DNA of 64,000 nt from Candidatus Saccharimonadota bacterium (GTDB lineage Bacteria; Patescibacteriota; Saccharimonadia; Saccharimonadales; Saccharimonadaceae). Location: positions 62,001-126,000 of the forward strand of contig JAQBRV010000001.1 of assembly GCA_028286285.1 (NCBI GenBank), read 5' to 3'. The notes beneath the pieces were generated by a model. The model ran no database searches. It saw only the letters and a program-made list of their open reading frames with translations, and had not been told where the DNA came from. The position numbers were made by a program, and so were the translations under genes. Positions 31,282 to 34,984 of the stretch are shown here, in pieces (the stretch's first letter is position 1; the number at the start of each line of letters is the position of its first letter).

Positions 31282-32337
31282 TTACTTCTTTAGGATACTG
31301 GTATCCGGATCGTTCTCTTCCCGATCAGCACTTGGGCTCTGCCCTTTCATGCCACCACTACCGCCAGCGTTGACTTCGTAGCTGGTGTTAGTCGCTTCGA
31401 AAAAGTTCACCAGCTGCAGCGTATCGTTGGCGCCAGCCATCCACTTCGCAGGGTTAGAAACCTTGTAGTGAGCTTCAAACCCAAGTTCTTCTAGGCGGCG
31501 ATCGGCAAGATACTTCACGTATTGATTGATGTAGTCGCTATTCAGCCCCAGGATGCCGTTTGGCAGAAGATCCTTATTGTACGCCTCTTCCATCTCAACA
31601 CCGTCGAGAATCATTTGCTTGATTTCAGCAGCAAATTCGTCAGTTTGAAGATCTTCATTTTCTTCAAGTACCGTCAGGATGAGGTTGATACCAAACTTGA
31701 GGTGAAGCGACTCGTCGCGAACGACCCAGTCGATCAATGAACCAAAGTTACGCAGCAGATTACGTTGACGGAATGAAAGAGCCACCATGAAACCGCTGTA
31801 GAACCAGATGCCTTCAAGAATAATATTGTAGGCGACGAGGTTACGAACGAAGTCTTTTTTACCCTCAGTGGTGGTAATGTCCAGCGTATCCTCGGTCATG
31901 CGCTTGATGAACTTGGTTTCAAATTCTTCCTTGCGCGCCATCGAAGGCGTCTCAACGTGTGCAGTATAGGCAGTCTCCCGGTCGATCGGAAAGGTCTCGA
32001 GCACGTATTCGAAGCTCATGCAGTGATTGGCCTCTTCCCACATTTGCTTGGCAAGATACAGGTGACATTCAGCCGCATTGACGTAGGGGTAGACGCCAAA
32101 TGCTAAGGCTTTATTAACTAGTAGCTCATTTGGATTGAAATAACTCATGAGGAAGGTCAGCGCGTGACGCTCTTCATCAGTCATTTTCTTCCAGTCGGCC
32201 AGGTCTTGGCCTAACTGAATCTCATTCGGGAACCACGTGTTCGCCACCGCTTGGTCGTAAAGATCCATCGCCCATTGGTAATGAATCGGTTTGAGCAAAA
32301 GCCCGTCCTGGATGCCTGTTCCTAAAATTCCTGCCAT
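31282..32337 (-). CDS. nrdB: Ribonucleotide reductase beta subunit, class Ic-like
   Basis: Houses the metal cofactor that starts the radical reaction making deoxyribonucleotides. 351 residues. Metal ligands are visible in FNPNELLVNKA, MWEEANHCMSFEYVL, YNIILEGIWFYSG and RDESLHLKFG. In class Ia the motif is E-x-x-H-x-x-x-Y with the radical Tyr; here it is E-A-N-H-C-M-S-F, so Phe replaces Tyr as in the Chlamydia class Ic enzyme that uses Mn/Fe. The first metal ligand is Glu rather than Asp, also a class Ic trait. The start overlaps the preceding 57-aa gene (TAATG). Confidence 0.93.
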   Translation of the reverse strand: MAGILGTGIQDGLLLKPIHYQWAMDLYDQAVANTWFPNEIQLGQDLADWKKMTDEERHALTFLMSYFNPNELLVNKALAFGVYPYVNAAECHLYLAKQMWEEANHCMSFEYVLETFPIDRETAYTAHVETPSMARKEEFETKFIKRMTEDTLDITTTEGKKDFVRNLVAYNIILEGIWFYSGFMVALSFRQRNLLRNFGSLIDWVVRDESLHLKFGINLILTVLEENEDLQTDEFAAEIKQMILDGVEMEEAYNKDLLPNGILGLNSDYINQYVKYLADRRLEELGFEAHYKVSNPAKWMAGANDTLQLVNFFEATNTSYEVNAGGSGGMKGQSPSADREENDPDTSILKK

Positions 32338-32510
32338 TATTGACAGCCTTCGCACATCAGAAGATCCTGTGGATCGAGTGGTGCGGCTACTTGGCCATTG
32401 GCTTCAGCTTCGTCGTTTGCCATTGCCTGTGCATTCGCCATTGCCTGGTCGATTGCAGCCAGTTTTTCTTCTAGTGTCATGTTGTCGTCGATGATTGTTG
32501 ATGCGTTCAT
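32337..32510 (-). CDS. 57-aa protein ending MCEGCQ: candidate detached NrdA C-terminal tail
   Basis: A small gene between nrdA and nrdB. It starts MNASTIIDDNMTLEEKLAAI, has an Ala/Asn/Met-rich helical middle, and ends APLDPQDLLMCEGCQ. In class I RNRs the flexible C-terminus of NrdA carries a Cys pair that relays electrons from thioredoxin or glutaredoxin to the active site, and in many NrdAs it ends in C-E-x-C-Q. The NrdA here lacks such a pair. ATG at 32510 has AGGGGA upstream; its stop overlaps the nrdB start (TAATG). In-frame TAG just upstream shows it is not a continuation of nrdA. Confidence 0.8.
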   Translation of the reverse strand: MNASTIIDDNMTLEEKLAAIDQAMANAQAMANDEAEANGQVAAPLDPQDLLMCEGCQ

Positions 32511-32581
32511 TGTGTTGTTCCCCTATTCCCTTTTGTCTACTTTTATTTTGTTCTGGTTGTTGGTTGATTAAGTAATTATGC

Positions 32582-34984
32582 TCATACGCCCACCGTCTGT
32601 TTCTTGGCGAAACCAAAGCCCGATTTTCGCGGCCCGGTGCCTGTTTCAGATTTGTTTACCTTGACGGTACTTTGTTCGGCGGTATGTCGTGGTTTCACGT
32701 GTAAGTAGTAGGTCGTCTTGAGTCCGCGTTTCCAGGCAGTCGTGTAAATCTCGACATAATCGTCAATGTTACGTGTCTCGAGGTACATATTGCGTGAAAT
32801 TGCTTGGTCGACCCACTTCTGCGCCCTTGCCGCAACTTCGATAAAGGCGTACGGACTGAGCTGGAAGCTGGTCTTGTAGACATCTTTGAGATTCTGTGGA
32901 ATGGCATCGATCTGCTGGATATCACCTTGGAGGCGGAGCACGTCGTTCTTCACGTTGTCCCACAGGCCAAGTGCTTTGAGGTCACGCACCATGTTGCCAT
33001 TAACTTCCAGAAATTTACCATTGAGCGTCGCTCGGCTAAAGATCTGAGCGAATTGTGGATCGAGTCCTGGCGTGGTGCCGGCAATGTGGGCGATATTAGC
33101 AGTCGGAGCGATCGCCATTAATGTAGCGTTGCGCATGCCCTTCTTCACTTTTTTGCGAAGCAGTTCCCAATCAAGTCGGTGCTTTCGGTTGACGTCAACT
33201 TTTACCTTACGATCAGTGGCCAGCTCGTCGAGTGTGTCAAACGGCAAGATTCCTTTGCTCCAACCACTACCTTTGAAGGTTGGGTAGGCGCCACGGACTT
33301 TCGCCATGTCGGCACTTTCGTCGATAGCATTGTAGCTAATGAACTCGGTCAGTTGGTCGATCAACTCGTAGGCAGCTTCGCTTTCGTAGCTGTGACCAAG
33401 TTTTTCGATCACGTCGGTGAAACCCATCAGTCCCAAACCAAGCGCACGGTTCTGCGTATTACTGTGCATGGCTTCAGGAATTGGCGTGTTAGTGATGTCA
33501 CATAGGTTATCGAGCTGACGCACGGCGCTGCGTGTACTCGCTGCCAATCGATCCCAGTTCCATGATTTATCGGCGTTCAGATGAGCCGACAAGTTAATAC
33601 TCACCAGGTTACATACAGCAGTGTTGAACTCATCCTGTGGCAACGTAATCTCAGTACAGAGGTTCGACAGGTGGATGGTGCTAGTGTTGTTGTTGAGTGC
33701 GCGCACATTAATCGTGTCTTTCCAGGTCAGCCACGGGTGACTGGTGGCCTGGAGGACGCTCAGAATTTGGCGGAATTGTTCGCGAGCACCAATTTTGGTG
33801 AATTCACGCATTTCGCCTTTTTCGGCTTTTTTGATGTACTCAGCGTAGCGCTTTGAGAATTCTGCGCCGTAGAGTTCGGGCAAATCTGAAACCTCGGCTG
33901 GATCAAACAGATACCAGTCCTGGTCTTTATCGACGCGCTTCATAAACTCGTCGCTAATAAAAACGGCGGTGTTTGCTAGGCGGGTACGCAGGTATGGGTC
34001 GCCCGAGTTTTGTTTGAGGTCAAGGAACTGCGGAAAGTTGAGGTGCCAGTTTTCCATGTAAAGCGCCGCGGCACCGGCTTTTTTGCCTTTTCGAGATACG
34101 GCAAATAGCGCGCTGTCGATCATTTTCATGAAGGGAATCGGGCCAGTACTCTCGGTGTTGGTAGTTTTGACTGGTGAACCGGCTGCACGAAGCTTATTAA
34201 GGCTGATACCAATACCGCCGGTGCCTTTAGCAATCCACATAACGTCGCGGATACCTTTGGCGATTGAATCCATGTCGTCTTGGATTTCAAGTAAGAAACA
34301 GTTTGAGAGCTGCGGGAATGAACCGCCAGCGTTTACTCGAGTTGAGCCGCCCGGGACGTAGTCGAGGTTACTCATGTGCTCATAGAAATCGAGGGCAGCA
34401 GCAGTTGGATCCGTTTCGTTGAAACTCAGTCCCATGGCGATACGCATGTGAGTGTACTGTGGTACTTCGATTGGCTCACCACTTTGTTTACGCAGCGCGT
34501 AACGGTTTTTGTTGGTCACCACGCCGAGGTACTTGCTCAGGTTGTCACGAGTTGGGTCAAGCGCTTTCGCTAATTTTGCAATGTTAAACACTTTGGGGCT
34601 CATGCGAGTGTCGAGCAGCCCATCCGCGACGCTCTTTTTGAGGTATTCAACAAATTTATCTTCGTGTAATTTCTTGAGCTCGTCGGCCGAGTCGTAGTCG
34701 CCAAGAATGTTCTTGTAGACGTTCTTGAGGAGCAATCGTGCGGCGATGGTGTCAAAATCTGGATCGTCTTTGACATTCTGCAATGCCGTGTGAATGACGG
34801 CTTCATCAAGCTGTTCGCTGGTAATGCCATCAAATAATGTCAGTTGAAGCTCAGTCGCAACTTGTACTACCTTACTAATTTGGTCAGGAAGGCCCTCACT
34901 TGCCTTTACCAGTGCAAGGTTGATCTTGTTGGCGTCAAATGGTTCGCGGGTGCCATCTCGCTTGACCACATGAATTCCGTTCAT
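32582..34984 (-). CDS. nrdA: Ribonucleotide reductase alpha subunit (no C-terminal Cys pair)
   Basis: Catalytic subunit reducing ribonucleoside diphosphates. 800 residues: an N-terminal ATP-cone (VVKRDGTREPFDANKINLAL, residues about 6-90) for allosteric control, then the ten-stranded barrel with FPQLSNCFLLE, the active-site NLCTEITLPQDEF (N-x-C-x-E), AVCNLVSINL and PTANIAHIAGTTPGLDP. The radical-transfer Tyr pair is in KTTYYLHVKPRHTAEQS. The protein ends SGFGFAKKQTVGV without the usual redox-active CxxC/CxxxxC tail. ATG at 34984 has AGGGGA 8 nt upstream. Promoter with NrdR-like boxes lies at 35107-35160. Confidence 0.96.
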   Translation of the reverse strand: MNGIHVVKRDGTREPFDANKINLALVKASEGLPDQISKVVQVATELQLTLFDGITSEQLDEAVIHTALQNVKDDPDFDTIAARLLLKNVYKNILGDYDSADELKKLHEDKFVEYLKKSVADGLLDTRMSPKVFNIAKLAKALDPTRDNLSKYLGVVTNKNRYALRKQSGEPIEVPQYTHMRIAMGLSFNETDPTAAALDFYEHMSNLDYVPGGSTRVNAGGSFPQLSNCFLLEIQDDMDSIAKGIRDVMWIAKGTGGIGISLNKLRAAGSPVKTTNTESTGPIPFMKMIDSALFAVSRKGKKAGAAALYMENWHLNFPQFLDLKQNSGDPYLRTRLANTAVFISDEFMKRVDKDQDWYLFDPAEVSDLPELYGAEFSKRYAEYIKKAEKGEMREFTKIGAREQFRQILSVLQATSHPWLTWKDTINVRALNNNTSTIHLSNLCTEITLPQDEFNTAVCNLVSINLSAHLNADKSWNWDRLAASTRSAVRQLDNLCDITNTPIPEAMHSNTQNRALGLGLMGFTDVIEKLGHSYESEAAYELIDQLTEFISYNAIDESADMAKVRGAYPTFKGSGWSKGILPFDTLDELATDRKVKVDVNRKHRLDWELLRKKVKKGMRNATLMAIAPTANIAHIAGTTPGLDPQFAQIFSRATLNGKFLEVNGNMVRDLKALGLWDNVKNDVLRLQGDIQQIDAIPQNLKDVYKTSFQLSPYAFIEVAARAQKWVDQAISRNMYLETRNIDDYVEIYTTAWKRGLKTTYYLHVKPRHTAEQSTVKVNKSETGTGPRKSGFGFAKKQTVGV

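Follow-up and report, generated by a model that had tools for sequence, protein, structure and literature searches.

A separate gene for a 57-residue peptide (hereafter T) lies between nrdA and nrdB in the window, i.e. the whole stretch of 64,000 nucleotides of Saccharimonadota DNA that was analysed, and very likely T acts in trans as the third component of a class I ribonucleotide reductase, relaying electrons from thioredoxin or glutaredoxin to the active-site disulfide. No biochemistry, expression or binding data stand behind this reading. The active site of class I NrdA is oxidised in each cycle and re-reduced by a C-terminal Cys pair, which is in turn recharged by thioredoxin or glutaredoxin (PMC5704485, PMC9669993), and in class I enzymes the reducing pair is found almost exclusively on the catalytic chain (PMC9669993). 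For the NrdA of the window, T is the only candidate found for this re-reducing pair.

Structure of the nrdA-T-nrdB locus

The host enzyme belongs to class I, with an NrdA and a ferritin-like NrdB (Pfam/NCBIfam and PDB matches), and it is not a B12-dependent NrdJ, since its NrdA gets a much better score as NrdA/NrdE and is paired with an NrdB. NrdA is 800 aa long, ends in GFGFAKKQTVGV and has no Cys pair there. Its best NCBIfam model (NF005101/PRK06539, 1331 bits) is matched only up to profile position 790 of 822, which means that about 30 C-terminal positions are missing. The Pfam domains found are PF02867, PF00317 and the ATP-cone, and the closest solved chain is 5im3, which we take to be the NrdA of P. 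aeruginosa. The translation of T is MNASTIIDDNMTLEEKLAAIDQAMANAQAMANDEAEANGQVAAPLDPQDLLMCEGCQ, with DPQDLLMCEGCQ as its C-terminal end. It holds only two Cys and no cysteine-rich domain, and a profile search gave no significant Pfam or NCBIfam match, including none to the thioredoxin fold of glutaredoxin or NrdH. Its stop codon and the ATG of nrdB (at 32337) overlap as TAATG. The gene structure is thus shown directly, and two claims of an earlier, sequence-only reading held, namely that NrdA lacks a C-terminal Cys pair and that a separate 57-aa ORF between the two subunit genes shares TAATG with nrdB; a ribosome-binding site of its own can now be added (Table 1).

Table 1. Positions of T, its parts and the adjoining reductase genes (window coordinates)
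Feature	Coordinates	Strand	Basis or remark
nrdB, small subunit	31282..32337	(-)	Pfam and PDB matches; ATG overlaps the stop of T
T, stand-alone 57-aa redox-tail peptide gene	32337..32510	(-)	Stop codon included
T residues 44-57, PLDPQDLLMCEGCQ	32340..32381	(-)	Corresponds to the Cys-pair tail at the C-terminus of fused NrdA
T residues 11-35, predicted helix, proposed docking element	32406..32480	(-)	Conserved MTLEEKLAAID
71-nt spacer, nrdA stop to ATG of T	32511..32581	(-)	No gene inside
AGGGGA, Shine-Dalgarno-like, 5' of T	32519..32524	(-)	Sequence
nrdA, class I large subunit without C-terminal Cys pair	32582..34984	(-)	NF005101/PRK06539, Pfam
NrdA C-terminus, GFGFAKKQTVGV	32585..32620	(-)	Fused relatives run on here into linker and Cys tail (alignment)

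As regards the small subunit, the solved chain closest to NrdB is 1syy, which we take to be the Chlamydia class Ic subunit, and a Phe occupies the position of the radical Tyr of most class I subunits (WEEANHCMSFEY vs FEEAVHTHTFLY). Together these suggest a class Ic-like NrdB with a cofactor of the Mn/Fe type. About 20 nt 3' of nrdB, on the same strand, lies a gene for an NRAMP-family metal transporter (PF01566; 29995-31263, minus strand), as would suit a class Ic-like enzyme that depends on metal.

Conservation of the split form and its fused relatives

T is present in the window's family almost always as its own short frame (search of 61 relatives). Its conservation is shown by a family survey, in which NrdA was searched for and 100 regions were then taken, the end of nrdA being readable in 97. 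An ORF ending in DPx(2-6)CxxCx-stop was present downstream of nrdA in 95 of the 97 readable loci, the remaining two being one contig end and one N-filled locus, and no family member (0/97) had a Cys in the last 30 residues of NrdA. Only 2 of 1200 shuffled 4.5-kb stretches held any such ORF, against which the recurrence of T cannot be a matter of chance. All 95 ORFs end in CxxC plus one residue, and both Cys are kept in every complete copy. T stands between nrdA and nrdB in 68 loci and past nrdB (1-3 kb after nrdA) in 26, while one copy could not be placed, its contig having yielded no nrdB. An SD-like element was seen upstream of 87 of 94 T genes. The pN/pS of T is 0.26 for residues 1-24, 0.50 for residues 25-42 and 0.18 for residues 43-57, i.e. 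lowest at the Cys motif and low at the N-terminal segment, and T is therefore under purifying selection that is strongest at both. In loci with the order nrdA-nrdB-...-T (L100-L151), a PNPOx-like flavoprotein and a DUF84 NTPase-like protein are often encoded in between. The records of T carriers in the species collection are labelled Saccharibacteria (TM7), plain 'bacterium' or Patescibacteria, with one titled Chloroflexi.

A comparison of fused and split forms, which the sequence-only reading had proposed as a check, gave a consistent picture, as the nearest NrdAs outside the order (phylum-wide search) are both fused and carry the same motif. These are G479/L268 (58% identity) and G286/L269 (52%), with tails of the form CP[IV]DPQERLxC[DE]SCQ (ends CPIDPQERLQCDSCQ and CPVDPQERLNCESCQ, respectively), for which the counterpart in T is APLDPxxLxMCEGCQ. 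The fused and split NrdA bodies align through a GFG motif, where the split NrdAs stop and the fused ones continue (...GKTGFGALAAM...KACPIDPQERLQCDSCQ in G479/L268 and ...GFGGF...TACPVDPQERLNCESCQ in G286/L269). It is the last 14 residues of T (PLDPQDLLMCEGCQ, or PIDPQDAFQCEGCQ in family f12) that match the fused tail. More distant NrdAs likewise have fused tails (GDPNLNICESCQ, CLINDPECEACQ). Both the loss of the tail from NrdA and the likeness of the C-terminal motif are thereby shown. Weak phylum-wide matches to the T model comprised the unlinked tail of G484 (family f30, see below) and possibly a fused tail in G584, while the remainder looked unrelated.

Independent splits and viral copies

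Fission of the tail has happened repeatedly and independently. A tree of 59 NrdA cores (tails left out; quick method, LG+G4) requires four changes between the fused and tail-less states, each forced by well-supported branches, namely in a Saccharimonadales-like clade, in family f30, in G387 of family f40, and in the fused G740 inside f30. Tail-less NrdA therefore occurs in three separate groups on this tree, i.e. the Saccharimonadales-like clade, f30 and the single genome G387. The NrdA of G387 ends in ...KKFAAPTA, and a 69-aa ORF after its nrdB ends in GDPNLNVCESCQ, whereas the family mates of this genome have a fused NrdA with GDPNLNICESCQ.

In f30, 11 of 12 NrdAs are tail-less. The free peptide of this family (32-37 aa, ending in CPIDPxxLxEC[DE]ACQ and almost always preceded by a strong SD) was found in ten genomes by searching thirteen f30 genomes for the DNA pattern C-[ED]-x-C-[QE]-stop; clear homologues were thus present in 10 of 13, on a contig different from that of nrdA except in G484. 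The exact pattern search found no free tail in G739 and G750 and no clear match in G746. In G742, whose genome is incomplete, the free peptide is present but no NrdA was found. No tail-like Cys ORF was found near the tail-less nrdA of G484; its free tail lies about 66 kb away as a 36-codon gene with a AAAAGGAGGGTGAGTTT-ATG start, a terminator-like hairpin and the product MPDKKAQKNSIADSDWDKPMVCPIDPEELKECEACQ.

Two further observations concern the tails of these groups. One genome, G740 (L315, L326, L331), has a fused NrdA (CLISDTECEACQ) as well as two free tail peptides, so that either loss and gain of the tail are not strictly one-to-one or the metagenome-assembled genome is mixed; a re-fusion, a second system and a mixed assembly are all possible. 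The f30 tails also share an acidic-Trp motif (DDDWDKPM) that resembles the C-termini of f30 NrdBs (GGTLDWE), and DDDW recurs in the ORF of G387. This resemblance suggests docking at the site of the NrdB tail, which the free tail of f30 could conceivably occupy by mimicry, but this remains no more than a lead.

T is also found on viral contigs that lack nrdAB. Homologues with both Cys and the N-terminal motif kept occur on 23 IMG/VR contigs (5-86 kb). None of the 23 T-bearing records gave an NrdA, and none of the 21 of them that were searched for NrdB gave one, two host genomes used as positive controls being matched. The contigs may be fragments, and the absence of nrdAB from them is therefore no proof for the whole virus. 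The neighbours of the viral T include genes for terminase subunits, a DNA polymerase exonuclease subunit, polynucleotide kinase and a replication initiator. In four contigs (L347-L350; 54-86 kb) a glutaredoxin gene (PF00462) follows a few hundred bases after T, and in L348 both stand after an array of 22 tRNA genes. L351:146-480 holds two overlapping tail-like ORFs in tandem (ends PVDPSDLTMCEGCQ and PTDPMDDLQCDSCQ), and tails that are f30-like or related occur on two further viral contigs. Two species genomes (L162, L188) have a second T in a phage-like context, in addition to another T locus, the second T of L162 adjoining a terminase-like ORF. On the phage-like contig of a Saccharibacteria genome (L188:4246-5919), T adjoins an ORF that is GroEL-like, as recognised by eye only. 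No match to T was found among 50,697 annotated phage records. That the T-bearing phages infect Saccharibacteria is inferred only from the distribution of T.

Mechanism, rival explanations and known systems

In the proposed mechanism, each turnover would leave NrdA with a disulfide in its active site. The CxxC pair at the extreme C-terminus of T would be reduced by thioredoxin or glutaredoxin, and the reduced tail would then enter the active site of NrdA and reduce the disulfide there, while the conserved N-terminal helix would keep T on NrdA or on the NrdAB complex. The N-terminal half of T is predicted to be helical and shows the constraint expected for a binding element, and the adjacency of glutaredoxin in phages provides indirect support for electron transfer via T. 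The claim of the sequence-only reading that the tail has become a trans-acting peptide is supported by these comparative tests. That T docks physically, that electrons pass through it and which reductant serves it are still inferred, dithiol exchange by T being deduced from motif and distribution only. Variable gene order, two further independent splits (in one of which the tail is no longer linked to nrdAB) and phages with T alone were not foreseen in that reading. The structure prediction it had proposed was run as two AlphaFold2 models, which gave no usable docking. In a natural NrdA-T readthrough of G087, NrdA was folded (pTM 0.80), with a pLDDT of about 60 for the helix of T and a disordered linker, while an NrdA(without ATP cone)-T-NrdB readthrough of G029 gave no usable model (mean pLDDT 57); neither was counted for or against docking.

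It could be argued that T is still joined to NrdA as a covalent tail, be it by programmed frameshifting, stop-codon readthrough, RNA splicing or protein trans-splicing. In favour of this, T directly follows nrdA in most genomes, and both are in one frame in G029 and 18 other loci; in G029 the nrdA stop, the linker and T share a frame, the stop (TAG) being followed directly by GAGGG and the ATG of T. However, the frame of T relative to nrdA is random across the three frames (26/23/20), by which a conserved frameshift or readthrough of nrdA is excluded, and the argument of the sequence-only reading against a simple frameshift therefore held. In addition, the nrdA-T spacers vary between 3 and 273 nt, an SD of its own precedes T, and T may follow nrdB (as in the 26 loci above), be unlinked, or sit on phage contigs without nrdA. 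An intron, intein or homing endonuclease between nrdA and T was rejected as well, the 71-nt spacer being too short. Altogether, hardly any room is left for a covalent tail.

If T were not an NrdA tail but a small redox or metal-handling helper of the NrdB cofactor, like NrdI or a metal chaperone, this would be compatible with its linkage to nrdB, with a class Ic-like NrdB adjoined by an NRAMP metal transporter gene, and with the metal binding of which a CxxC is capable. Against it, the C-terminus of T matches the Cys tail of fused NrdA, free tails are found where NrdA lost its own, phages pair T with glutaredoxin, and without T there is no known route for the re-reduction of NrdA, which makes such an accessory role very improbable. 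A further alternative, confined to the copies in phages and not in conflict with the favoured account of the host gene, is that phage T competes with or redirects the host enzyme, for instance by displacing host T so that the phage reductant is favoured or host dNTP synthesis is blocked. The occurrence of T without nrdAB on phage contigs, some with their own glutaredoxin, speaks for this; in the phage peptides, however, the two Cys and the full motif are retained, which is what functional tails should show and a blocker would not need, and competition is therefore considered unlikely. Returning to the trans-acting tail, a bolder reading would join these observations and see the tail as a detachable mobile module, which separated from NrdA on three or more occasions within Patescibacteria, acts in trans even when unlinked, and was taken up by Saccharibacteria phages, sometimes with glutaredoxin, to control the electron supply to the host reductase during infection. 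Taken as a whole, this reading is considered more likely than not.

One of the closest known systems is the split class II enzyme NrdJa/NrdJb of Pseudomonas aeruginosa, of which the NrdJb chain carries out reductive dithiol exchange and is needed in vivo. In 2015 this enzyme was described as the only ribonucleotide reductase outside viruses that had been found to be split (PMC4520616). In NrdJab, too, catalysis and dithiol exchange reside on two different chains, both encoded in one operon (PMC4520616), just as T is a separate polypeptide. NrdJab is however of class II (B12), with an NrdJb of 229 residues, whereas here the enzyme is of class I and the detached part is 32-69 residues long, recurrent, and can be unlinked; T, with its 57 aa and two Cys, is not a large cysteine-rich second chain. 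By analogy the mechanism would be alike, docking and activity not having been shown, but the present form is class I, minimal and recurrent. The class I NrdA of phage Aeh1 likewise consists of two separately encoded and jointly functional polypeptides (nrdA-a/nrdA-b), but there the gene for the homing endonuclease mobE is inserted inside nrdA (PMC3653736, PMC2988022), whereas in the present case only the flexible redox tail is detached, without an insertion in the window, and this arrangement is kept throughout a bacterial family and also outside it. With the ordinary class I CxxC tail T shares the Cys pair at the extreme C-terminus and its motif (PMC9669993, PMC5704485), the differences being that T is encoded in trans, has an added conserved N-terminal segment and lacks the covalent link to NrdA. 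For class II NrdJd, the question has been raised whether a C-terminal Cys can act on the active site of a different subunit in the same oligomer, although the tail is there still a covalent part of the catalytic subunit (PMC5704485). In the literature searched, outside of which most subscription papers fall, a free class I tail is not described, so that its absence from the literature is not proven. Nor did that literature yield a report of the phage T, an auxiliary gene from the little-studied, ultra-small Saccharibacteria.

Ribonucleotide reductase is close to universal, and a free tail makes its reduction step separable, which means that the supply of tail could be titrated, mutated or exchanged without touching catalysis, and raises the question whether one tail can serve many active sites. 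A likely function is also provided for a conserved small protein of these bacteria that, without a Pfam or NCBIfam match, is easily overlooked.
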